Origin: a virus
Length of the DNA stretch: 24,891 nt
Strand: one strand, 5' to 3'
Virus record (IMG/VR): IMGVR_UViG_3300020578_000406
Span: 1 to 24,891 of that record
Part shown: positions 1-11,672 of the stretch, piece by piece
How the letters are laid out: every line of letters starts with the position of its first letter
Numbering within the stretch: the stretch's first letter is position 1
Program-made: the position numbers and the translations under genes
Notes under the pieces: model-generated
What the model was told of the DNA's origin: nothing
What the model saw: only the letters and a program-made list of their open reading frames with translations
Database searches by the model: none

Positions 1-573
1 AAGGGCTGGCTGAACCTTGACCACAAGCCCGGCGTGGAAAACGTGCTAGGCTACCCGCTCAGCGTTGAGACGCGCGGGCGCGAGACGCACCTGGAGGGCG
101 TGCTACTGCTCGACCGCCCAAAGGCGCGCGAGGTGTATGACACGGCGCGCAGCCTACAGAAGGCGGGGGGCGGGCGGCGCCTGGGCTTCTCGATTGAGGG
201 CCAGGTGATGGAGCGCGACCCGAAGAACGCAAAGCGCATCATCAAGGCGCGCGTGCTCAACTGCGCTATCACGCACAACCCGATCAACGCCGACACGCAC
301 CTAGAGTTAATGAAATCGCTTATGAGCGTGGGCTACCAGACGCCGAGCGCCGCGCCCAACGGCGAGAGCCTCGCGCCGCTAGTGCCTCAACAGCTCGCTG
401 GACATATCGCCAACGCCGCCAGCCCATCTCAGAAAAAAAATTCAGAGGATGCGGCTTTAGCTGATATGATTAGAGCGCTATATGCAAACTTCCCCGCCGC
501 CCCACTCGCCGAGATCATCAAGGCGGCTCAACAGATGACGGAGGCTAGGCGAATATGCGCCGAGACGACCTAA
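1..573 (+). CDS. Prohead (capsid maturation) serine protease, 5' end outside window
   Basis: The reading frame is open from base 1, so the true start lies upstream and only the C-terminal part is seen. A GTG at 34 is internal and should not be taken as the start. The likely catalytic pair is His in LNLDHKPG (bases 22-24) and Ser in LGFSIEG (bases 190-192), the arrangement of phage prohead proteases, which cleave scaffold and capsid N-termini inside the procapsid. The gene sits just before the scaffold and capsid genes, as expected. The tail after about base 320 is low in conserved residues and holds a VGYQTP...PQQL block (bases 328-396) that reappears in the capsid protein. It overlaps the next gene by 19 bases. 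The family call rests on the two motifs and the context; the third catalytic residue was not identified. Confidence 0.8.
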   Translation, partial: KGWLNLDHKPGVENVLGYPLSVETRGRETHLEGVLLLDRPKAREVYDTARSLQKAGGGRRLGFSIEGQVMERDPKNAKRIIKARVLNCAITHNPINADTHLELMKSLMSVGYQTPSAAPNGESLAPLVPQQLAGHIANAASPSQKKNSEDAALADMIRALYANFPAAPLAEIIKAAQQMTEARRICAETT

Positions 574-1130
574 TCGAGATGATGAAAGCGGCGGGCGTCG
601 CCCCCGCAGAGGCTGAGGCTCGCGCCGACGCCACCCTCGCGGATCACGCCGCCGCGGACACCCTCACCAAGAGCCTCGACGCCCTCGCCGACGTCGCCGC
701 CGCCCAGACGCGCGCGGAGGCGGAGAACGCCGACCGCCTCGCGAAGGCTGCCACCGCCGCCGAAATCAACCTCGCCGAGACGCTCGCGCCCGCCCTTGAC
801 GCCATGCTCGCCGAGCAGCGCACCCAGAACGCGGCGCTGGCTAAGGGGCTCACCGGCGCCCTGGAGCTCATTAAGGGGCTCAAGGCTGATCTAAAGGCCC
901 TCCGCGACGCGCGCCCCGCGCCCGCGCCCGCGCCTATGGCTAAGAGCGTTGATTTCATCCCCGCCCCCGGCGAGGTGAAGGGCGCCGCCGTGGACGCGCG
1001 CGAGGAGCTCATTAAGGCTCTTACCGGCGCCACCACCACCGACGCTAACCGCGCCGCGCAGCTCATGCACGCCGCCGCCCTCCTGGAGAGCGGCGCCGAC
1101 CCCCTCGACATTCAGAAGCGTTTCTTTTAA
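555..1130 (+). CDS. Putative capsid scaffolding protein
   Basis: This 191-residue protein is Ala/Glu/Lys-rich with heptad-like spacing over about residues 25-118, so it is probably a long coiled coil. A Pro-Ala hinge (about residues 119-128) and a small C-terminal helical domain ending DPLDIQKRFF follow. Scaffolds line the procapsid interior and are removed by the protease; the position between protease and capsid gene, and the helical low-complexity composition, fit this role. The start ATG at 555 has GGAGG at 540-544 inside the end of the protease gene, so translation is probably coupled. There is no recognisable enzymatic motif. The call is by context and composition, not by a specific sequence family. 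Confidence 0.7.
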   Translation: MRRDDLIEMMKAAGVAPAEAEARADATLADHAAADTLTKSLDALADVAAAQTRAEAENADRLAKAATAAEINLAETLAPALDAMLAEQRTQNAALAKGLTGALELIKGLKADLKALRDARPAPAPAPMAKSVDFIPAPGEVKGAAVDAREELIKALTGATTTDANRAAQLMHAAALLESGADPLDIQKRFF

Positions 1131-1142
1131 GGAGCCCCGCAC

Positions 1143-2543
1143 ATGATCAGCTCTCAGAACCTCGCCGCGCTCATGGCCGACCTGAACAAGGGCACCGTGG
1201 GCTACCAGACGCCCCTAGTTCCCGCCGGGGGCTCCCAGACCGCCTCTAACCTCTCGCCGCTCATCCCGCAGCAGCTCTCACAGACGCTCAGCGTTGCTAC
1301 CTCCAGCATGGCCGACCTCAAGCTGTGGCCCATGCTCAACAAGGTTGCGGCTATGAACACCGTTGTCGAGTACAACCGCGTGCTCTCGCACGGCGCCGAG
1401 CACTCCCCGTTTATCGCTGAGGGCGGCGTGGGCGCGCTGAACCGCGCCACCTACCAGAAGGTCGCCGTGCAGATTAAGTACCTCGCTGAGCGCCGCGAGA
1501 TCACCGACGTTGCCTCTTTTGTGTCGCTTGTCGGGCCCTCCGCCGACGCCCTCGCGCTTGAGACGACGCGCGGCACCGAGGCGCTGTTGCGCCGCGTGGA
1601 AAAGGAGCTCTTCTTCGGTAACAGCACCGTCAACCCCCTCGCGTGGGATGGGATCATCAAGCAGATCAGCGACGCCGGCAACGTCGCCGACCTCCGCGGC
1701 AAGGCTGTTACGCCTAATTACCTCCAGGAGGTGCTAGGCTCGCTGTACTCCGCGCCCTTCTACGGTATGGCCTCGCACATCCTGGTCACGCCCCGCGTTC
1801 TCAGCGAGATCATCAAGCAGACCGTGACCTTTGGGCGCCACGATCAGATCAATTTCAACAACGGTATGCTAGGGTTCGGCTCGAACAACCTAACGATTAG
1901 CGCCCCCTACGGCATGATCCCCGTTGTTGCGTGCCCGTTCCTTGAGCGCCACGACCGCATCGCCCCCGCCGCGGGCGCGTCGGGCGTGTTTGACGGCTCT
2001 GTGGTCACGCCTACTATCAGCGTGCAGCCCACCGCCGCCACTAACGCCGCCTCTCAGTTTGTGGCAGCCGACGAGGGCGCCTACCGCTACCGCGTTGTGC
2101 CCGTGGGCCCGTCGGGTGTGGGCGTCGCCGTGGACACCAACGCCGTTAGCGTGGAGACGGGCGACCGCGTGAGCTTCACCATCGCGCAGAGCGACGCCTC
2201 CGCGACCGTCTCGCACTACCGCGTTTACCGTTCCGCCGCGGACGCCGCCAGCGCCGACGGCGCGCTCCTGGTGCGCGAGATCGCCAACGGCGGCGCCACC
2301 ACGGTCTTTACGGACGACAACGCCGACCTCCCCGGCTCCTCGCCTATCCTGCTGATCAACAGCGGCGCCGATCATATGGCCTACTACCAGATGCTCAGCC
2401 TGATCCGCCGCCCGCTCGCGCAGATCAATAGCAGCTACCCGTTCCTGCTGATGATGTTTGGCGCCCCCGCCGTGATGCTCCCCTCGAAGATGTGGATCAT
2501 CAAGAACGCCGGCGTGAACCCCGCGCAGGGCCTCCCCGCCTGA
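1143..2543 (+). CDS. Major capsid protein, HK97 fold, with Ig/FN3-like insertion
   Basis: This 466-residue protein forms the icosahedral shell. The first 45 residues look like a flexible N-terminal arm. The core follows: LKLWPMLNKV, then AEGG (92-95), YLAERREITDVASF (about 113-126), a long helix with GTEALLRRVEKELFFGN (144-160), WDGIIKQI, and a LRGKAVTPNYL stretch, which is the pattern of HK97-fold capsids. Residues about 290-398 are a beta-rich insert with YRYRVVPVGPSG, VSHYRVYRS and TTVFTDDN, resembling a fibronectin III/Ig-like domain. The fold then resumes with DHMAYYQMLSL. AAGGAG at 1129-1134 serves ATG 1143. None of its 24 Ile codons is ATA, unlike neighbouring low-copy genes, consistent with very high expression. 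Confidence 0.9.
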   Translation: MISSQNLAALMADLNKGTVGYQTPLVPAGGSQTASNLSPLIPQQLSQTLSVATSSMADLKLWPMLNKVAAMNTVVEYNRVLSHGAEHSPFIAEGGVGALNRATYQKVAVQIKYLAERREITDVASFVSLVGPSADALALETTRGTEALLRRVEKELFFGNSTVNPLAWDGIIKQISDAGNVADLRGKAVTPNYLQEVLGSLYSAPFYGMASHILVTPRVLSEIIKQTVTFGRHDQINFNNGMLGFGSNNLTISAPYGMIPVVACPFLERHDRIAPAAGASGVFDGSVVTPTISVQPTAATNAASQFVAADEGAYRYRVVPVGPSGVGVAVDTNAVSVETGDRVSFTIAQSDASATVSHYRVYRSAADAASADGALLVREIANGGATTVFTDDNADLPGSSPILLINSGADHMAYYQMLSLIRRPLAQINSSYPFLLMMFGAPAVMLPSKMWIIKNAGVNPAQGLPA

Positions 2544-2560
2544 GACGAGTAGGTGAGAAG

Positions 2561-2848
2561 ATGTGGCGTAGCCGAGGCTTTAAGGCAGGTGAAATCAGCA
2601 TCGCGGGCGCGCCCGTAGAGGTGCGCGATTATCTGATCACCACCCCGCAGCTCACGGACGCCCAGATCGCGCACCTAACCCGCTCTAGCGCGTGGACACT
2701 CATCACGGAGGAGGAGGAGGCGCCCCCCGCGCTCGACCTCACCCCCGCCCCCGCCCCCGCTCAGGCGCTCGCGCCGGTGGCGGGCGGCGACACTTCCCCA
2801 GAGCCCGCGCCCAAGCGACGCGGGCGCCCCAAGAAGGTTAGCCCATGA
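2561..2848 (+). CDS. Small structural-module protein with AT-hook-like tail
   Basis: This is a 95-residue protein if it starts at ATG 2561, which has AGGTGAG at 2551-2557. An upstream in-frame start at 2492 would lie inside the capsid gene and is less likely. The N-terminal half (VEVRDYLITTPQLTDAQIAHL and the following residues) looks like a small folded domain. The middle is Pro/Ala-rich and acidic, and the C-terminus KRRGRPKK matches the RGRP core of AT-hook minor-groove binders. Its role is unknown. The position directly after the major capsid gene suggests a head-associated or DNA-contacting protein, but that is inference from context only. The stop overlaps the next start (ATGA, 2845-2848). 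Confidence 0.75.
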   Translation: MWRSRGFKAGEISIAGAPVEVRDYLITTPQLTDAQIAHLTRSSAWTLITEEEEAPPALDLTPAPAPAQALAPVAGGDTSPEPAPKRRGRPKKVSP

Positions 2849-3801
2849 GCTCAGCGCTCGCCCTCCGCGGCTATGACGCCGCTTGGCTCAAAAGCACCTT
2901 CCTTCTAGGCGTAGACCTCACCCTCGACGACGGCACCGCTTACCCCGACGTGGTGTTTGAGGACGCTCTAGCGCAGGCTGAGCGCGCCATAGGCGATGAA
3001 CTAGGGCTCACCCTCGCGCCGCAGGTGATACGCGAGCGCCAAGACCGAGAGCCTGGGCTGAGCGCGGGCTGGTATCCGATACGCACGCGCCACCGCCCCC
3101 TGATCGAGGTACAGGAGCTCGCCGTGCTCTACGGGCGCTCAGTCTCGCGGGCGATACTGCCGGCGACCTGGGCGACCATACCCGAACCTATGGCGGGGCA
3201 GATACACATCATCCCCACCACCGACGGCGCGGCGAGCTATGTGATCAGCGGCGGGCAGCCAATCATTCTAGGTTTCGGCGGGATGAGCGGCGTAGACCCG
3301 TATATTCCCGCCTACTTCGAGATCACCTATAGCGCTGGCTTCCCGCTCTACACCGGCGCGGCGACTATCCCCGCCGGCGCCTTGAGCGTCGAGGCCCCGA
3401 TAGGGCGCGCCTTCCAGGACATTTACAGCGCGAGCGCCTCAACGGGCGCCACGGTAAGCGCGAAGGGCTTTGAGAGCCTCACGCTAACGCGCACGGGCGC
3501 GAGCACCGCCGCGCCCCTCGCCGTGACTTGGACGGTAGACACCCTCCCCGCGCCGATAGTGCGCGCTGTGGGGCTGCAAGGCGCCTCCCTCGCGCTGAAT
3601 ATCGCGGGCGACCTCATCGCGGGCGCCGGTATCGCGCAGCAGTCACAGGGGATCGACGGGCTGAGCCAGAGTATCGCGACTACCGCCAGCGCCACCAACG
3701 CGGGCTATGGCGCGCGACTAGGGCAGTTTGAAAAGGAGCTCAAGGCGCTAATGAAAACGCTTAAGGCCACCTATCGCGCCTTCAATATCGCGGCGCTTTG
3801 A
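2845..3801 (+). CDS. Head-tail connector / adaptor protein
   Basis: This 318-residue protein starts at ATG 2845, overlapping the previous stop by 4 bases. The N-terminal half has features of connector proteins that dock under the portal: WLKSTFLLGVDLTLDDG followed by an acidic helical stretch (EDALAQAERAIGDEL), then PIRTRHRPLIEV and a P-x-W segment with GQIHIIP. The C-terminal half (from about residue 170) is beta-rich, then has an Ala/Gly-rich region ending in a Lys-rich helix (FEKELKALMKTLKATYRAF). The position after the capsid gene and before the neck and tail terminator proteins supports the call. The exact equivalent in model phages cannot be fixed without structure comparison. Confidence 0.65.
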   Translation: MSSALALRGYDAAWLKSTFLLGVDLTLDDGTAYPDVVFEDALAQAERAIGDELGLTLAPQVIRERQDREPGLSAGWYPIRTRHRPLIEVQELAVLYGRSVSRAILPATWATIPEPMAGQIHIIPTTDGAASYVISGGQPIILGFGGMSGVDPYIPAYFEITYSAGFPLYTGAATIPAGALSVEAPIGRAFQDIYSASASTGATVSAKGFESLTLTRTGASTAAPLAVTWTVDTLPAPIVRAVGLQGASLALNIAGDLIAGAGIAQQSQGIDGLSQSIATTASATNAGYGARLGQFEKELKALMKTLKATYRAFNIAAL

Positions 3802-3810
3802 GGTCGCGCT

Positions 3811-4629
3811 ATGCAGCTCCCATCACGCGCCCCCGTTAAGCTGATACCCCGGGCAGACTTCAAGCCAGAGGAGTTCAGAAAGCTCATCTTCGCGCAGGGG
3901 CTGAATGTGCGCTGGGAGCAGTCGTGCTTGTGCCCGTGCAACGCGCCCATAGCGGCCAGCGGCTTTCAGAGCACTTTGACACCGACCGCGGCGACGACGC
4001 GAAACCGCCCCGACTGCCAAGCGTGCAACGGGCGCGGCTACCTCTATCACGACGCCCAAGAGATCAAGGCGCTAGTGACGGGGGCGCGCAAGACGGATGA
4101 GCGCTTTAGCCAGGTGGGAGGCTCAGAGTACGCGGACGGGCAGATAGGGCTCTCGCTACTGCCTGAGCATTTGCCCGCTATGGGCGACCGCTTCACGCTG
4201 ATAGATGCAGAGCTTATCTATCGCGAGGTCATAACGCGCGGCGCGAGCGCCACAGACACCCTAACCTATCCCATATCGCGGCGCGCTCACGACCTCGCCG
4301 GCGGGGCTGTTACTTTCGGCGTGCGGTACGCGCGCAGCGCCGCCCTAGACGGAACGGTCACGGGGGGGCGCGCCTTTGTGGAGGGCGTGGACTTCACCAC
4401 CACCACGGGCGCGCTAGTGTGGACAGCGCCCGACGCCCCGCCCGCCGGCGCGCGGGTGGCGCTGGAGTACTACACGCACCCCGCCTACATCATCACGGGG
4501 CAGCCGCACGCGATACGCGACGCCTATAAGCAGTTCAAGGCGCCCGCGCCGTTCCATATCTCGCTCCCCATTTACGCGGAGGCGCGCTTAGAGCAGTACG
4601 GCGCCCCCCGAGAGGGGGCGGGCCCATGA
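3811..4629 (+). CDS. Neck/head-completion protein with Cys-rich (zinc-like) motif
   Basis: This 272-residue virion protein lies between the connector and the gp10-like gene. Its N-terminal part has CLCPC (Cys39, 41, 43) and then CQACNGRGY (Cys69, Cys72). The CxxCxGxG core is the signature seen in DnaJ-type zinc knuckles, so a metal-binding site is likely. The rest is beta-rich (YREVIT, GVDFTTTTGALVW, VALEYYTHPAYI) and ends with a conserved-looking HISLPIYAEARLEQYG. Half of its Ile codons are ATA (7 of 14), matching the phage tRNA with CAU anticodon. Function is inferred from position; the phage family has no specific assignment that I can prove from sequence. Confidence 0.6.
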   Translation: MQLPSRAPVKLIPRADFKPEEFRKLIFAQGLNVRWEQSCLCPCNAPIAASGFQSTLTPTAATTRNRPDCQACNGRGYLYHDAQEIKALVTGARKTDERFSQVGGSEYADGQIGLSLLPEHLPAMGDRFTLIDAELIYREVITRGASATDTLTYPISRRAHDLAGGAVTFGVRYARSAALDGTVTGGRAFVEGVDFTTTTGALVWTAPDAPPAGARVALEYYTHPAYIITGQPHAIRDAYKQFKAPAPFHISLPIYAEARLEQYGAPREGAGP

Positions 4630-5330
4630 GCCTCAGCACGGGCATTGATCAAGCGAGCCGCCTAGCGCGCGCTTATCGGGTGGCGGAGGTAGTGGCAGCG
4701 GCGTGGAAGGCTGAAGCGCAGAGCTACGGGCTCAGGAGCACGCTAAACATCTACAAGCGCGGCGTTCAGATACGCGAGGTGAGCGTCTCGCACGTGATCA
4801 TCTCACTCAGCGGGATAGTTCCGCTGATGATCGAGAACGGGGTAGCGGCGCACGATATGAGGCGCTATCTACTCCGCACGCAGCGCCCGGGCGCCTCGCC
4901 GATACGCTATGTGAAGAAGGGCCCGCGCAAGGGTGAGCCCTACCGCTTCATTATGTTTGGGCGCACAGGACGCGATATAGACACCTACGGGGGGCGGGGC
5001 GCGAGGCGCGAGGCGCGCCAGCTCGCCCCGTCGATGAGCGGAACGGGTGGACGCCTACTCATCGGGGGGCGCTATAGCAACCCCTCAGCGCACTACATTA
5101 ACAAACTAGGTATCCGCTCGACCTCCCCCGCGCTGAGCGGAATGGTAAGGTTAGAGGCGACCACCACCGCCGCGGCGGGCGAACCCGGCACGAATACCAC
5201 CTATGCGGCGTGGCGGACGGTCAGCACAAAGCGCGCGGACGCTTGGCAGCACCCGGGGCGCCCCGCCGCTAACCTCGCGGCGCGCGTCGCCGCTCAAATC
5301 CCCCAGCTAGTGGAGGCCGCCGGGCTATGA
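4626..5330 (+). CDS. HK97 gp10-like neck/tail-completion protein
   Basis: This 234-residue protein overlaps the preceding gene by 4 bases (ATGA at 4626). The N-terminal half is helical followed by VSHVIISLSGIVPLMIENG. The C-terminus contains AAWRTVSTKRADAWQHPGRP and an Ala-rich helix. The pattern of an RTVS strand, Trp and HPG just before a terminal helix recurs in HK97 gp10-like proteins that sit at the head-tail joint. The middle is Arg/Gly-rich. It is probably a joining or completion protein present in few copies; the assignment is from motif and order. Confidence 0.6.
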   Translation: MSLSTGIDQASRLARAYRVAEVVAAAWKAEAQSYGLRSTLNIYKRGVQIREVSVSHVIISLSGIVPLMIENGVAAHDMRRYLLRTQRPGASPIRYVKKGPRKGEPYRFIMFGRTGRDIDTYGGRGARREARQLAPSMSGTGGRLLIGGRYSNPSAHYINKLGIRSTSPALSGMVRLEATTTAAAGEPGTNTTYAAWRTVSTKRADAWQHPGRPAANLAARVAAQIPQLVEAAGL

Positions 5331-5938
5331 TCCATCATCACGCCCTCGCAGCGCTACAGCCCGCGCTAACGTACTATTTCACCCCCGCGAATAAGGCCGC
5401 CTGGCTCGCGCTGTTCACCGATGTCGCCAGCTCTACGGCGCAGCTTGAGGCGCTCTATTTAGAGCTCACCGCCACGCGCCCCGACCTACGCCCCTACGCA
5501 CAAGCGGGCCTCGCGAAACCGCCATGTGTGATAGCACAGCTCACGGCGCGCCGCGTCACCGACCGCCCGCTAGGTGGCACGTGGAACGGGGGCGAGAGCC
5601 TAATCAGCGAGCAGAGCGCTACGCTGGAGATTATGGCGCGAGGTGCAGACGAGGCCGACGCACTCGCTTATACCGTGCTCAAGGCGCTGCAACAGGCGCG
5701 GGGCGACTTCCTCGCAAACGGCTATATCTACATCGAGACGGGCACAATGAGCGAGCTAGCGCCTCACGAGACGCTCAGCGCCGAGGAGCTAGGCGTTTAT
5801 GTGCGGCGCCTCGAAATGCGCGGGCGCGTAATGGAGGGCGTAACGCGGCTAGGCGCGTGGGATAGCACGCTAGGCCCCCTCACCATAGGGCTCACCCCCG
5901 CGGGGCGCGTGGAGCCTCTCACGCACTCCGAATTCTGA
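5327..5938 (+). CDS. Putative tail terminator / tail-completion protein
   Basis: This 203-residue protein starts at ATG 5327, overlapping the previous stop by 4 bases. Its position immediately before the sheath gene is where contractile-tailed phages keep the tail terminator, the ring that caps the tail tube and binds the neck. The sequence alternates strands and helices (SATLEIMARGADEADALAYTVL, GYIYIETG, YVRRLEMRGRV), compatible with that alpha/beta fold. I recognise no diagnostic motif, so the call rests on synteny. The stop is followed by an extended -10-like element and the sheath gene. Confidence 0.5.
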   Translation: MIHHHALAALQPALTYYFTPANKAAWLALFTDVASSTAQLEALYLELTATRPDLRPYAQAGLAKPPCVIAQLTARRVTDRPLGGTWNGGESLISEQSATLEIMARGADEADALAYTVLKALQQARGDFLANGYIYIETGTMSELAPHETLSAEELGVYVRRLEMRGRVMEGVTRLGAWDSTLGPLTIGLTPAGRVEPLTHSEF

Positions 5939-5944
5939 TACAAT
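5936..5944 (+). promoter_or_regulatory. Candidate extended -10 promoter before sheath gene
   Basis: TGATACAAT overlaps the stop of the preceding gene. It fits the TGn extended -10 form with TACAAT, and the 35 bases between it and ATG 5979 include a GGAG-type ribosome site. No good -35 is visible at 16-18 bases upstream. The same TGNTACAATCGC block occurs at 12304, at the same 43-base distance from a start codon. Confidence 0.4.
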
Positions 5945-5978
5945 CGCGGCGACGTTCACCCAGGCAGGAGAAACACCA

Positions 5979-7625
5979 ATGCCGAGCACCCTAACGCTAT
6001 CCGGGCTGCCCGCCACCGCGCGCCCCGGCATCTACGCGCGAATTGACGCTAGCGCCCTCAGCGGCGGCGCCCCCGATAGCGGGCGCCTCGCGCTTGTGGG
6101 CGACTTCCCCACCTTCCCCACCGCTACCCCCGTCGAGTTCTCATCACGGCGCGCAATGAGCGCCTATGACACGAGCGACGCCGACCTAGCGCAGCTCGCC
6201 GCGCTGGCGTTCAACCCCTCCAACGACCCCCTCGCCAACCGCGGCGCCTCCGCGTTGATTATGGTCAACGCGCGCGAGAGCTGCACCGCCGCGAGCATCG
6301 ACCTGGGGCCCGTAGTGCTCACCTCGCGCATCTACGGCCCGCGCGGCAACCGCCTAAACGGCGCGCTTACCGTGAGCGGCGATAACCTGAGCCTCAGCCT
6401 AAACCGCGGGGGGCTCAGCGAGAGTTTCAGCGCGACCTCTAACGCGCTATTCAGCATCACCAACAGCACCGGCGGGGCGCTCACGCTCACCGTGGCGGCG
6501 GGGGTGATCACGCTTGAGGCAAGCGGCGGGGTGATCCTCGCCACCATCACCAGCGCCGAGGCGCCCGACCTCCGCGCGGCTGTGGCGATCCTCGACGGGC
6601 TAAGCAACGTGAGCGCCGCGCTCATCGAGCCTGGCCTAGTCACCCTCGCCGAGCTCGACTACACCTCCGCGAGCATCGCCACGGCGGCCACCTACAGCTT
6701 CAAGGCGCCGGGGCGCGCGCTCACCGTAGCGCTGAGCGCCTCGCGCCTAGTCAGCGCGGCGCAGGACACCACCAGCAGCGCCGGCTCGCTGAGCTCAGGC
6801 GCTTTGAGCGCATCAGGCGGCGCGCAGGGGAGCGAACTAGGGTGGGCGGCAGCCCTCGCCGCTATTGAGGCTCAGAGCGTGCAACTAGTGTGCGCCTTCA
6901 CCACCGACAGCGGCGCCCACGCGCTACTCCCGGCGCACCTCACCGCGGCGGCCCTCGCGGGCTACGAGCGCCAGGTCTACAGCGCTCTAGCCTCTACTAC
7001 CACCCTCGCGGCGGCGCGCCCCCTCGCCGCGGCGCTGAACAACCCCGCTATCGCGCTCGCCGCCCAGAGCGTGACGCTCTACGACCCCCGCGGGCGCGTG
7101 GCGGCGCTCGACGCGCGTTATACGGCGCTCATGCTCGCCGCGATGCAGGCGGGAAGCGACATAGGCGAGCCTCTCACGCGCAAGCGCCCCGCGATCCTCT
7201 CGACCTCTCAGGTTTGGGATACTCACGCGGACATCGAGACGGCGCTACGCGCGGGGCTGTGCGTGATCAGCCGTGACACGCTAGGGCCGCGGGTGGAGCG
7301 GAGCCTCACGACCTGGCTTGAGGATAACAATCCCGTTTATACCGAAATTAGCGCCTATGAGAGCGTGCTGTTTAGCGTGCGTGACCTCCGCGTCGCCCTC
7401 GCCGACCAGATAGGGCGCCCGACGAAGGCGAGCCAGATGAGCCTCATTGAAAGCCGCGTTAACGCGCGCCTCGCCGCACAGGTGCAGGACGGGCGCATCA
7501 AGGCCTATCAGGGCGTGACGCTTGAGGACTTAGGCGACCAGGTGGCGGTCAGCTATCAGGTCGCGCCGGTGGAGCCGCTTAATTTTATCGCCATCACCGC
7601 TATTGCCCAGCGCATCAGCGCCTAA
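5979..7625 (+). CDS. Contractile tail sheath protein
   Basis: This 548-residue protein forms the contractile outer tail tube. The C-terminal third is the most diagnostic: RKRPAILSTSQVWDTHADIE, then GLCVISRDTLGPRVERSLTTW, the DNNPVYTEISAYESVLF stretch, RDLRVALADQIGRP and a terminal GDQVAVSYQVAPVEPLNFI strand pair, the arrangement of sheath C-terminal domains that interlock between subunits. The N-terminal half is an Ala/Ser/Thr-rich beta region (YGPRGNRLNGALTVSGDN). CAGGAG at 5964-5969 precedes ATG 5979. Most Ile codons are ATC/ATT with only two clear ATA, in keeping with a high-copy protein. It is followed at once by the tube gene, as in other contractile phages. Confidence 0.88.
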   Translation: MPSTLTLSGLPATARPGIYARIDASALSGGAPDSGRLALVGDFPTFPTATPVEFSSRRAMSAYDTSDADLAQLAALAFNPSNDPLANRGASALIMVNARESCTAASIDLGPVVLTSRIYGPRGNRLNGALTVSGDNLSLSLNRGGLSESFSATSNALFSITNSTGGALTLTVAAGVITLEASGGVILATITSAEAPDLRAAVAILDGLSNVSAALIEPGLVTLAELDYTSASIATAATYSFKAPGRALTVALSASRLVSAAQDTTSSAGSLSSGALSASGGAQGSELGWAAALAAIEAQSVQLVCAFTTDSGAHALLPAHLTAAALAGYERQVYSALASTTTLAAARPLAAALNNPAIALAAQSVTLYDPRGRVAALDARYTALMLAAMQAGSDIGEPLTRKRPAILSTSQVWDTHADIETALRAGLCVISRDTLGPRVERSLTTWLEDNNPVYTEISAYESVLFSVRDLRVALADQIGRPTKASQMSLIESRVNARLAAQVQDGRIKAYQGVTLEDLGDQVAVSYQVAPVEPLNFIAITAIAQRISA

Positions 7626-7639
7626 AAGGAGCCCCTTAA

Positions 7640-8068
7640 ATGCCAGCCTACAGAGCAATCAGCGGCGCGAGCTGCAAAGTTTATCTAGCGGCGACCGGTC
7701 AAGAGGTGGGGTGGGCGACCGGCGTAGACGTGACCGAGACTATTACGAATGTGCGCGTGGACGTTATAGGCGACCTCGACAGCGCCGAAATCACGCCGGT
7801 GCGGCGCGCTGTGACGATGAGCGTCGCGGCTATGCGTATCCAGCGCACCCCCCTTGAGGCGCTAGGCGTGTGGAGCCAGGGCGACACGGCGACCATACTA
7901 GCAACGCCCGCGCTGGACTTCGCGGTGATAGACGACACCACCGGCGAGGCGCTTTTGACCTTACAGGGGTGCAAGCCCTCGACACGTACTTTCCGCGTAG
8001 ACGCATCGTCGCTCTTTTCGGAGAACCTAAGTTTTGACGTGCGGCGGATCATCTACCCGGGCGCTTGA
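7640..8068 (+). CDS. Tail tube protein
   Basis: This 142-residue protein lies directly after the sheath gene. The length and the beta-strand-rich pattern (SCKVYLAATGQEVGWATGVDV, VDVIGDLDSAEITPVRR, LSFDVRRIIYPGA) fit the single-domain inner tube of contractile tails. AAGGAG at 7626-7631 gives an optimal ribosome site for ATG 7640. The call is supported by order (sheath, tube, chaperone, tape measure) and size more than by any catalytic motif. It is followed by a structured 53-base gap. Confidence 0.8.
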   Translation: MPAYRAISGASCKVYLAATGQEVGWATGVDVTETITNVRVDVIGDLDSAEITPVRRAVTMSVAAMRIQRTPLEALGVWSQGDTATILATPALDFAVIDDTTGEALLTLQGCKPSTRTFRVDASSLFSENLSFDVRRIIYPGA

Positions 8069-8082
8069 GTTTACCGCCCTCA

Positions 8083-8120
8083 GCGCCTAGAACATAGGCG
8101 CCGCGCGAGGAGGCGGCGCC
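8083..8120 (+). promoter_or_regulatory. Two mutually exclusive hairpins holding the ribosome site of the chaperone gene
   Basis: Hairpin A pairs GCGCCTA (8083-8089) with TAGGCGC (8095-8101) around loop GAACA. Hairpin B pairs GGCGCCGC (8097-8104) with GCGGCGCC (8113-8120), and its 8-base loop GCGAGGAG carries most of AGGAGG (8108-8113), 8 bases before ATG 8122. They share 8097-8101, so only one can form. No U-tract follows, so a simple terminator is unlikely. A translational control role for the following gene is inferred. Confidence 0.55.
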
Positions 8121-8121
8121 C

Positions 8122-8571
8122 ATGTTTCAGCAACTCAAAAACTCGAGCTCATCGCCGCCGCAACCGCCCGCGCAAGAGCCGCCCGCCGGCTTAGAGCGGG
8201 TGTTAAACATCGAGACGGAGCTAGGCGGCCAGGTGCGGCGCTGCACCGTCACGGCGCGCGTAATGGACTTGAGCGCGAAGATCGCCCGCGACCGCCTCGC
8301 GGCGCAGCTCGCGGCGCCCTCGCGCTTTGACGACCTCCCCGCCGCGGCGCAGCTCAGAATATGGGCGACCGCGACGCTGGCGCAGGCGATCACCGACGCG
8401 CCGCCCTGGCTGAGCGAATGGGCGGGGCTTTATGACCCGCTACTCTTCGCGCTCTTCGAGGAGGTGACGGCGCACGAGCGCGCATTTTTTCGCGGACACT
8501 TGGCGGAGGGCGCAGGCGCAGCGCCAGAGCCCCGCGTGGAGGTTAAGCGCCTCGCTCTACCCTCCCTTTGA
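8122..8571 (+). CDS. Tail assembly chaperone (unshifted, G-type product)
   Basis: This 149-residue protein lies between the tail tube and tape measure genes, the fixed place of tail assembly chaperones, which coat the tape measure protein while the tube polymerises. It begins with a Ser/Pro-rich stretch, then a small alpha/beta domain (VLNIETELGGQVRRCTVTARV, helices to GLYDPLLFALFEEVTAHERA). AGGAGG at 8108-8113 serves ATG 8122. Near its end it contains GCA TTT TTT CGC (8482-8493), and a second open frame continues from there to the tape measure start, so a fraction of product is probably frameshifted, as is usual for this gene pair. The family is recognised by position and architecture. Confidence 0.75.
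   Translation: MFQQLKNSSSSPPQPPAQEPPAGLERVLNIETELGGQVRRCTVTARVMDLSAKIARDRLAAQLAAPSRFDDLPAAAQLRIWATATLAQAITDAPPWLSEWAGLYDPLLFALFEEVTAHERAFFRGHLAEGAGAAPEPRVEVKRLALPSL
8485..8490 (+). promoter_or_regulatory. Candidate programmed ribosomal frameshift site (T6)
   Basis: Six T's are read TTT TTT in the chaperone frame, in strongly GC-rich surroundings. Phe-tRNA can re-pair perfectly after a +1 or -2 slip. Either enters the frame that is open to 8759. The direction is not the -1 shift most common for this gene pair. Confidence 0.55.
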
Positions 8572-8761
8572 GCCTTGCCCCCTCGACCCGACGCGCCCCA
8601 ACGCGCCCGCCGCTTGTGTGATTGAGCGGGGGCTAATGGCACTCAGCGACGAGGCCTTTAACGCCGCGCAACCCGCGCATAATGCTACAATAAAGGCAGA
8701 TCAGCCCGCCGTAACGGGCGTGGCGTGGATAGACGCCCAAGAGCGCGCGAGGTTTAGATGA
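8489..8761 (+). CDS. Frameshift extension of tail assembly chaperone (T part of G-T fusion)
   Basis: Reading in frame 2 from TTC 8489 there are 90 sense codons to TGA 8759-8761, which overlaps the tape measure ATG at 8758. The peptide contains SASLYPPFEPCPLDP, CVIERGLMALSDEAFNAA and VTGVAWIDAQERARFR, with normal phage codon use, and it fills the otherwise empty gap 8572-8757. Frame 2 is closed upstream at TGA 8465-8467, and the shared window with the first frame (8468-8571) includes T6 (8485-8490). A +1 slip on the first TTT, or a -2 slip on the second, enters this frame. The fused product would be about 212 residues. An alternative is independent initiation at ATG 8636 (41 residues), which has a weak ribosome site. 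Confidence 0.65.
   Translation, partial: FADTWRRAQAQRQSPAWRLSASLYPPFEPCPLDPTRPNAPAACVIERGLMALSDEAFNAAQPAHNATIKADQPAVTGVAWIDAQERARFR
8683..8691 (+). promoter_or_regulatory. Candidate extended -10 promoter before tape measure gene
   Basis: TGCTACAAT matches the TGn-TACAAT form seen at 5936 and 12304 and lies 66 bases upstream of the tape measure ATG (8758). It is inside the frameshift extension, where it encodes N-A-T-I, so coding may explain part of it. No -35 is visible. Confidence 0.25.
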
Positions 8762-10293
8762 GCTCAGAGGTTACAATCAAGGTCAACCTAGACGAGACGG
8801 GCGCTATCAAGGACATTGAAACCTTAAAGCGCCACCTCGACGACCTCGCGCGACAAGCGGCGAACATCCCCACGGGCGCCGCGCCCGTCGCGCCTGGCGG
8901 GGCACCGCGCGACCCGCGGGGGCGCTTCATATCACGAGGCGGGGCGCCCGCCCCCCTCGCGGGAGCCCCTGGCGCACCCGCCGCGCCAGCGGCGCCTCCG
9001 ACCCTCGCGCAGCCCCCCGAGGCCGCCGCCGCAGGGCGGGGGGGCGCGGGCGCTATGGGCCCCGCTATCGCTCAAGCGCTGCTCAGTTTTGCGGGGCAGA
9101 GCGCGGGGGGTGTGGTGAGCGAGATAGGCGCGCGCAGCGCTAACCTTCCCTTTGTGGGGGGGCCGCTCGCGGCGTATCTAGGCATTAAGGGCGCCTCTCT
9201 ACAAGCGCGCGAGGCGCTCGCGGGGCAGGCGGCGGGGCTAGAGGGGCTGGAGGCGCAGATCGCCGGCGCCGTAGACATCGCGGGCGAGACACCCCGCGAG
9301 GCGACAGAGCGCGCCGCCGCATCAATCGCCTCTCTAGGCTTTGGCGCGGGTGAGGCGCGCCAGCTTATGGCCACCAACGCGGGGGCCTTTGGGCTCGCGC
9401 AGACATTCAGCGAGCTAGAGGGCACGCTGGGCGACCTCGCCGCCGCGCAAAAGGCGGGGCTAAGCCCGCAGATGATTAGCAGCCTAGCGGGAGCTATCAC
9501 ACAGGCGGGAACGGGCGCCGGCGGGGGTGTACAGGCGCGCGCCGCCTATGACCTAGCTTTCCAGATGCGGAACCTCGCCGAGAGCGGGCTAGACCTCCGC
9601 GGCGCGGGTGTTAATCGCTTCCTCGCCGGGATGCAGGGCGCGATAGACACGCTCGCGGGGCAGGGGATCACCACGCGCGGCGAGGGCCTCGCGGCGACCG
9701 TGCGCGCCGTGAGCGGGGCGACGAGGCGCACCGGTACCCGCCCGTTACAGATCACGCAGGCGCTAGGGGGCGCGGCGGGGGGCGCGCGTGCGGGCTTCGC
9801 GGGGCAGTTTGGGGGGCTAGTAGAGGCTGCCATACAGGCGGAGGCGTTTAGCCGCGCCGAGACGCCTCTACAGGCGCTCCAGATTATGGAACAAATGCAG
9901 GCCGACCCCCGACGGATGCAAGCGGCGCTTAGGAGCCAGCTAGGGGGGGAGGGCGCAGCGCTCGCTCTGGCTTCAATACCGGGCATAGGTGCGGGAGAGG
10001 CGCGACAGCTCGCCGGGGGGATGGGGCGCGGCGCGGACGCGCTTAGCCTACCCGCTCGACAGACGCGCGGGCAGATAGAAGCGGGGCTCGCCGTGAGCGC
10101 CGCCCAGGCGGCCGCCGATCAAGCGCTAGTGAACGCGGCGCGCAGCAACGAGGCTCTGTTAGTAGAGCTCACGCAGATCAGCGCAGACATCAAGGCCGCC
10201 GTACTGAAGTTCACCGAGACGAGCGACCTAATAACGGGGCTCGCCGCGGGTATCGCAAAGGCGCTGGACACTATCGCGAGGTTTACGCCGTGA
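8758..10293 (+). CDS. Tail tape measure protein
   Basis: This 511-residue protein sets tail length and is extruded ahead of DNA. It starts with a short strand/helix section (VTIKVNLDETGAIKDIETLKRHL), then a Pro/Ala/Gly-rich stretch (about 40-95) with DPRGRFISRG. Hydrophobic Gly/Ala-rich segments and long helical regions follow, ending with a helix-rich C-terminus (LVNAARSNEALLVELTQISADIK). It is short for the family: at about 0.15 nm per residue it predicts a tail near 75-80 nm. No lysozyme or peptidase domain is visible. It follows the chaperone pair with a stop/start overlap at 8758-8761 and precedes the baseplate hub gene. Confidence 0.85.
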   Translation: MSSEVTIKVNLDETGAIKDIETLKRHLDDLARQAANIPTGAAPVAPGGAPRDPRGRFISRGGAPAPLAGAPGAPAAPAAPPTLAQPPEAAAAGRGGAGAMGPAIAQALLSFAGQSAGGVVSEIGARSANLPFVGGPLAAYLGIKGASLQAREALAGQAAGLEGLEAQIAGAVDIAGETPREATERAAASIASLGFGAGEARQLMATNAGAFGLAQTFSELEGTLGDLAAAQKAGLSPQMISSLAGAITQAGTGAGGGVQARAAYDLAFQMRNLAESGLDLRGAGVNRFLAGMQGAIDTLAGQGITTRGEGLAATVRAVSGATRRTGTRPLQITQALGGAAGGARAGFAGQFGGLVEAAIQAEAFSRAETPLQALQIMEQMQADPRRMQAALRSQLGGEGAALALASIPGIGAGEARQLAGGMGRGADALSLPARQTRGQIEAGLAVSAAQAAADQALVNAARSNEALLVELTQISADIKAAVLKFTETSDLITGLAAGIAKALDTIARFTP

Positions 10294-11672
10294 AGGTTGA
10301 AATCTACACCGACACCCAGGCGCGAGAGATCACGGGGCACGTCACGGGCGTCACCTGGACGGCGAGCACGCGCGCACCGTACCTGAGCGCGAGCGTGACC
10401 CTCGCGGCGCCCTTCGCGCTACTCGACGAGATCGCCCCCGCCGGCGAGGGCGCCTTAGACTTGAACGCTTGGCTTGTAGTGCGCGAGATAGTCGCGGGTG
10501 CAGAGCGCGCCGTATTCGCGGGCCCCGTCACGAGCTACAACTACACGCTGAGCGCGGACAGCGGCGCGGGGCTGGAGGGGCTCAGGCGCCTCGACGCGCT
10601 CACCATCAGCGCCGCCTCACCGCTGCACCACATGAGCGAGGCTCAGATAGCGCTCAGCGCGCGCGCCGTGGGCGCCCCCGCCGGTCATATCTACCAGCTC
10701 AGCGAATGGGCGCCGATCATGCGCGAGCTCATCACAACGCCCTTTAGGGGCCCGTATCTAGGCGCCGCGCTCGCGCGCCTCTTCGAGCTACTCGCCGCGC
10801 CCTACAGGCTCCCCCGCACCCTCGCGGGCGGCGCCTCCCTCGCAGGTGTGCCCGTCGCTTACGACACCGACACGACCATCGAGCACGCGCCCGAGCGTGT
10901 GTTAGACGCGCGAGGGCTCACCGGCGCCGCAATAGCCGCCGTCTCAGCCGCCGCCGCCCCTGGGGGCTCGCCGTGGACGCTGATTAGCTCCATCTTCGAC
11001 CCCGACCCCACCATAGCGGAGCTGTTTGTGAGCCTTGAGCCCGTCGAGGACGGCGCGGCAGGCATAGGGGGCGCGCTGGGCGCCCTCCCCGTGCTCATCC
11101 ACCGCTTCCGCCCGTTCACCGTGGGGGCGCTCCCCTCCGCCGCCGCTGTGGGCGCGACGGACGCGCCCGCGCACCCACGCGCGCGCGCCTCGCTCATCGA
11201 GGGCGTTATCAGCCTCCGCGCCGCGCAGACGGACGCCGATAGGGTGAACGCCGCCTATATCACCACCCCGCTTACCGCATCCCGCGGCGTGGATAGTTTC
11301 GGGCTGATCGCTTCCCCGCGCCTCGACCCCGAGGACATAGACCGCGCGGGGCTCAGGCTCTACCGCGCACAATGGCCCTACTTTCCGCCGAGTAAGACCG
11401 AGGGCACCTTCGCGGCGCACTCGCAGTATATTGTAGACGTCACCGCACAGATCACCCAGGGGGCAGAACGCTTTATGAGCGGCGACATCTCAGCGCGCTA
11501 TTTACCGCACCTCCGCGCGGGGCTGTGGATCAAGGCGCCTATCGGCGACCACGCGCGCGAGCGGCGCTTTTATGGATACATCGAGAGCGCTACGCACTCC
11601 GTCAACGTAGGCGTCGGGGGGCTCATCACGCGCCGCTCATCGCTGAGCTTCACGAGGGGCTTTTTTGAATGA
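10290..11672 (+). CDS. Baseplate hub protein (gp27/XkdQ-like)
   Basis: This 460-residue protein starts at ATG 10290, overlapping the tape measure stop by 4 bases. It opens with a short strand section (MKVEIYTDTQAREITGHVTGVTW) typical of hub N-termini. After the middle it has DADRVNAAYI, and near the C-terminus FMSGDISARYLPHLRAGLWI and a closing strand HSVNVGVGGLITRRSSLSFTRG. These are features of the gp27-like hub proteins at the tail tip, which connect tube to spike. Position right after the tape measure gene supports the role. A lytic domain is not evident. Confidence 0.65.
   Translation: MKVEIYTDTQAREITGHVTGVTWTASTRAPYLSASVTLAAPFALLDEIAPAGEGALDLNAWLVVREIVAGAERAVFAGPVTSYNYTLSADSGAGLEGLRRLDALTISAASPLHHMSEAQIALSARAVGAPAGHIYQLSEWAPIMRELITTPFRGPYLGAALARLFELLAAPYRLPRTLAGGASLAGVPVAYDTDTTIEHAPERVLDARGLTGAAIAAVSAAAAPGGSPWTLISSIFDPDPTIAELFVSLEPVEDGAAGIGGALGALPVLIHRFRPFTVGALPSAAAVGATDAPAHPRARASLIEGVISLRAAQTDADRVNAAYITTPLTASRGVDSFGLIASPRLDPEDIDRAGLRLYRAQWPYFPPSKTEGTFAAHSQYIVDVTAQITQGAERFMSGDISARYLPHLRAGLWIKAPIGDHARERRFYGYIESATHSVNVGVGGLITRRSSLSFTRGFFE

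Follow-up and report, generated by a model that had tools for sequence, protein, structure and literature searches.

A tail assembly chaperone with a frameshifted extension, placed before the tape measure gene, is known from the gpG/gpGT pair of phage lambda, where the shift is -1 (PMC5009743). A +1 slip at UUU_CGU was shown by mass spectrometry for the influenza A protein PA-X (PMC3498833), and UUU_CGN +1 sites are prevalent in plant amalgaviruses, with all four CGN codons found at the proposed sites (PMC5052127); for both, P-site re-pairing from UUU to UUC has been proposed (PMC3498833, PMC5052127). In 2020, a TTT-CGC near the stop codon was proposed as the shift site in HF1-like haloviruses (PMC7230728). 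The published descriptions of the UUU_CGN motif that we found concern eukaryotic viruses and one haloarchaeal virus group, and PRFect, a predictor of prokaryotic frameshifts, states that a general motif for forward shifts has not been identified.

The DNA analysed here, called the window, is the whole stretch of 24,891 nucleotides (1-24891), and its sequence makes it very probable that it carries a tail assembly chaperone gene in which ribosomes undergo a programmed +1 frameshift at UUU_CGC. A frameshifted chaperone is already known as a kind and the phage lineage of the window is new; the new aspect appears to be the breadth of UUU_CGN in bacterial phages, of which no description was found in the searchable literature, most subscription journals lying outside its scope. 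The window resembles a myophage genome fragment and was binned in a bacterial MAG; it also encodes a head protease, a major head protein, a sheath, a baseplate J protein and, on the minus strand, a family A DNA polymerase. The features of the chaperone locus are the following:

5979-7625, plus strand: tail sheath (phrog_279, E 3.6e-41)
7640-8068, plus strand: presumed tail tube, directly after the sheath (phrog_985 virion structural protein, E 1.2e-11)
8107-8113, plus strand: Shine-Dalgarno (SD) GAGGAGG of the chaperone, read directly from the sequence, with the start ATG at 8122
8122-8571, plus strand: tail assembly chaperone ORF, zero-frame product of 149 aa (lambda gpG-like role)
8458-8466, plus strand: SD-like block GAG GAG GTG, synonymously frozen across relatives
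8474-8476, plus strand: frame-2 codon, possible independent start (ATG in 9/14 loci, ACG in the window)
8488-8493, plus strand: candidate +1 slip site TTT_CGC (in-phase TTT_CG conserved in relatives)
8492-8761, plus strand: frame-2 (T-like) domain, 89 codons past the slip plus the TGA at 8759-8761 (conservation, dN/dS, AlphaFold2 model)
8758-10293, plus strand: presumed tape measure protein, 511 aa, placed by position (relatives via tblastn)

By gene order, the chaperone ORF sits between the sheath and tube ORFs and the presumed tape measure ORF; the tube and tape measure identities were drawn largely from gene position, and the presumed tape measure ORF had no family match in Pfam or PHROGs. 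Sequence searches of Pfam, PHROGs and PDB gave nothing usable for the window chaperone or the frame-2 protein, and a homologue from a bacterial genome contig (L024) matched the PHROGs profile phrog_25000, 'tail assembly chaperone', with an E-value of 6.4e-5. The original prediction was that a T6 run inside the chaperone ORF, at 8485-8490 (in-frame TTT TTT, then CGC), lets ribosomes enter a hidden second frame by a +1 or -2 slip. The coordinates that it gave for this frame were all exact: the frame is open from 8468 to the TGA at 8759-8761, holds 90 codons counted from 8489, takes up the whole gap between the two ORFs (8572-8757), and has a stop that overlaps the start of the 8758 ORF in an ATGA (8758-8761).

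Taken in the window alone, the openness of frame 2 is moderately unusual and not strong evidence: the frame stayed open by chance in about 3% of the simulations (synonymous recoding plus a shuffled gap), and long open stretches also occur in other shifted frames of the GC-rich window. T6 itself occurred as five hits in three tracts on both strands of the window, vs 1.1 expected. The case for frame 2 is decisive because both the frame and the junction are retained in 14 distinct loci, and because the codons read only in frame 2 are under selection. This set, from which duplicates were removed and in which the window is included, comprised relatives with the same chaperone at ~80% identity (IMG/VR contigs L009-L012) and at ~50% (L033-L043), as well as distant homologues from two bacterial genome contigs, with chaperone identities of 39% (G056/L016) and ~27% (G145/L024). 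The frame-2 ORF was present in all 14 loci, always in one frame relative to the chaperone, and was open to a stop close to the next gene or, in the truncated L009 and L034, as far as the contig end. Outside the overlap, the frame-2-only codons gave dN/dS values of 0.02-0.24 in pairs with measurable dS, and their substitutions were concentrated at third positions, indicating purifying selection and therefore that frame 2 encodes a protein. This conservation identifies frame 2 (8468-8761) as a genuine second domain that the tail assembly chaperone has kept, and supports the prediction of a hidden frame that is reached by frameshifting within the shared region. The proteins of the window, L024 and L016 had no credible match among cultured phages, and that of L010 had no match in plasmids.

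TTT_CG was found in phase 0 at the junction of all 14 distinct loci, including the two distant ones. The codon before the slip codon was TTT in nine loci, TTC in four and TAC in one, and the A-site codon was CGC (n = 9) or CGA (n = 5); T6 was absent in five loci, all of which retained TTT_CG. In the 12 aligned loci the slip Phe was always TTT, the adjacent codon was TTT in eight, TTC in three and a Tyr codon in one, and TTTCG formed a five-base run of invariant columns in the 12-row DNA alignment. Only ~13% of the Phe codons in the L016 phage contig are TTT, yet the slip codon there is TTT. Since T6 is variable, with its first TTT (8485-8487) unconserved across loci, whereas TTT_CG is invariant, T6 is not the signal that had been expected; relatives did conserve the open second frame (14/14), but not the T6 (9/14).

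Both +1 and -2 slips are permitted at T6 loci, where UUU could re-pair with the UUU two bases back, as in the window and eight other loci. A Mu-like -2 slip, which would give AFFFADTWR, is nevertheless very improbable: the TTC_TTT_CG and TAC_TTT_CG loci keep the same frames and re-pair well at +1 only (UUU to UUC), so that conserved -2 re-pairing is absent, and the members of the Herelleviridae compared below have ACN, AAC or TCC before TTT_C. Of the two predicted directions, +1 is thus the most likely, and -2 is disfavoured by the poor re-pairing at the TTC and TAC loci. The homopolymer of six in a GC-rich contig might also suggest that RNA polymerase slips on T6 or that the metagenome assembly contains an indel error, but the same frame change is seen in 14 distinct contigs, five without T6, and in finished phage genomes, which leaves this explanation scarcely credible. 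With T6 missing in five loci, -2 slippage and transcriptional slippage were ruled out as common mechanisms. The invariance of TTT_CG agrees with Phe-tRNA slipping by +1 (UUU to UUC); UUU_CGN thereby replaces T6 as the proposed signal, and the likely direction is settled in favour of +1.

The site at 8488-8493 is the sole in-frame TTT_CGN in the window ORFs, vs seven TTC_CGN; none of the seven Phe-CGN pairs elsewhere in the window uses TTT (3.0 expected), which is suggestive of avoidance, and the overall count (8 vs 9.7 expected) gave avoidance no support. A slow A site is not obvious, because no Arg codon is used more often in the window than CGC, and a downstream RNA structure or stem-loop found no support (fold z +0.9; covariation term -0.09). 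A second in-frame T6 lies at 11661-11666, at the extreme end of the 10290-11672 ORF (ending in GFFE and the stop) and beside the point where this ORF and the 11669 ORF overlap; past the stop, the +1 frame continues for just 115 nt.

In the scheme that we infer for the occurrence, efficiency and assembly role of the slippage, most ribosomes would stay in frame 1 to 8571 and yield the short chaperone of 149 aa, and a minority would slip +1 at UUU_CGC (8488-8493). With the A site (CGC, Arg) empty, the P-site tRNA-Phe (anticodon GAA) would re-pair from UUU to its cognate UUC (8489-8491), and translation would resume at GCG 8492 in frame 2, giving a chaperone-T fusion of 212 aa with the junction ...ERAFF/ADTWRRAQ.... 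Residues 1-123 would be common to the short form and the fusion, and the zero-frame tail past the slip codon has 26 residues. If lambda gpG/gpGT is a guide, the two products would cover the tape measure protein and bring in tube subunits.

Along the chaperone, synonymous conservation is highest at codons 113-122, a stretch that lies directly before the slip and is only in part covered by a frame-2 reading. Here GAG GAG GTG is codon-invariant in 11-12 of the 12 loci, while neighbouring conserved codons vary, and GAGGAGGTGA, in the region of this SD-like block (8458-8466), is unique in the window. The block is a candidate stimulator of the slip or a candidate SD for a separate frame-2 start. As a stimulator, GAGGAGGTG ends ~21 nt before the slip codon, a greater distance than the SD effect described for prfB allows. 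As an SD, its core lies ~8 nt before the frame-2 codon at 8474-8476, a good spacing, and this codon is ATG in nine of the 14 loci. These observations, together with the synonymous freezing of the block, would agree with a separate frame-2 protein made by internal initiation, instead of or beside the frameshift, but this is unlikely: five loci from several lineages (the window, L011, L034, L016 and L024) have ACG at this position, L024 is without the SD-like block, and in the Herelleviridae the frame-2 overlap goes down to five codons with no start codon inside. An internal start cannot replace the frameshift, because the start codon is unconserved and TTT_CG would be left unexplained; in some phages, internal initiation of a separate T protein is possible.

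The products of the proposed +1 frameshift were modelled with AlphaFold2 as two halves, the chaperone and the frame-2 part, run separately and not as one fusion chain. The chaperone model (pLDDT 78.5) has a beta hairpin and helices; the last of these helices (residues 105-127) runs across the slip residue F123 and is followed by a zero-frame tail of mostly low-confidence coil. The frame-2 part is predicted as a helical domain (mean pLDDT 80), the first helix of which would continue the last helix of the chaperone. Foldseek searches of viral models matched the chaperone model with a probability of 1.0 to annotated tail assembly chaperones of the Herelleviridae (Lactobacillus phages and Bacillus phage JL); no significant match was found for the chaperone in PDB or for the T domain in BFVD. 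Profile comparison of the window with Herelleviridae chaperones was marginal (hhalign probability 33, E 4.6e-4) and kept to one diagonal as far as the slip site. The predicted models thus point to a fold-level relationship between the window chaperone and those of the Herelleviridae, the match being strong at the level of fold only.

Sixteen Herelleviridae sampled across many genera were compared with the window. In every one the second ORF was in +1 and the overlap held a single in-phase TTT_C, located at the junction. The junction was TTT_CGN in 13 of the 16; LP65 has TTT_CTC, LfeInf TTT_CTG and Yucatan TTT_CAA, so that CGN is a preference in this family. The three phages are natural A-site variants (LfeInf, L048 2113; Yucatan, L053 1867; LP65, L047 chaperone 3' end). 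SPO1, K and 3-521 carry TCC_TTT_CGT, which is exactly the influenza A PA-X site UCC_UUU_CGU. The slip Phe is an invariant column in an alignment with ~20% overall identity, and the other Phe codons in 15 of the ORFs are 51 TTT vs 28 TTC. Like the window, the Herelleviridae (for example SPO1 gp10.2/gp11.1) have the chaperone fold, the second ORF in +1, an in-phase TTT_C ending the last helix, and the gene order sheath, tube, chaperone, second ORF, and tape measure or tail lysin. They differ from it in the T domain, in the marginal sequence similarity and in the three members without CGN, whereas the window lineage has the frozen SD-like block upstream and a zero-frame tail longer than in most of them. 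The SPO1 database record already annotates +1 ribosomal slippage for the chaperone and, with this annotation and the TTT-CGC proposal for HF1-like haloviruses, the original prediction overrated how unusual a +1 site would be.

HF2, one of the HF1-like haloarchaeal myoviruses, has a chaperone ending in AAG TTT CGC AGA TAG and a following ORF in +1, which confirms the proposed TTT-CGC arrangement in its DNA; the window has the same TTT CGC and +1 second ORF, but HF2 has an archaeal host and a chaperone of a different family (phrog_14268/12163). Influenza A PA-X and the amalgaviruses share the slip motif and the proposed re-pairing, but involve eukaryotic ribosomes and unrelated proteins, and the PA-X efficiency is ~1%. 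As in G/GT-type genes, the window has a short ORF between tube and tape measure, a conserved overlapping frame and a chaperone fold; as in the UUU_CGN class, it has the in-phase motif in the overlap and the second frame in +1 (14/14 loci). One motif ties an uncultured phage lineage, the Herelleviridae and haloviruses to the influenza PA-X site, and it is likely that UUU_CGN is a general +1 signal on bacterial, archaeal and eukaryotic ribosomes and serves the chaperones of several distant lineages of tailed phages. UUU_CGN is accordingly a candidate for a general forward-shift motif of the kind addressed by the PRFect statement, and the A-site CGN preference becomes testable in E. coli and Bacillus.

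The comparison also fills in the half that chaperone annotations have lacked: in these phages, the second ORFs often carry the label hypothetical or RNA polymerase. In phage K (L061 25538-26074), A511 (L064 4531-5124) and LP65 (L047 23530-23976), the database label of the +1 second ORF is 'RNA polymerase beta subunit', a name that the T domain appears to carry in error.
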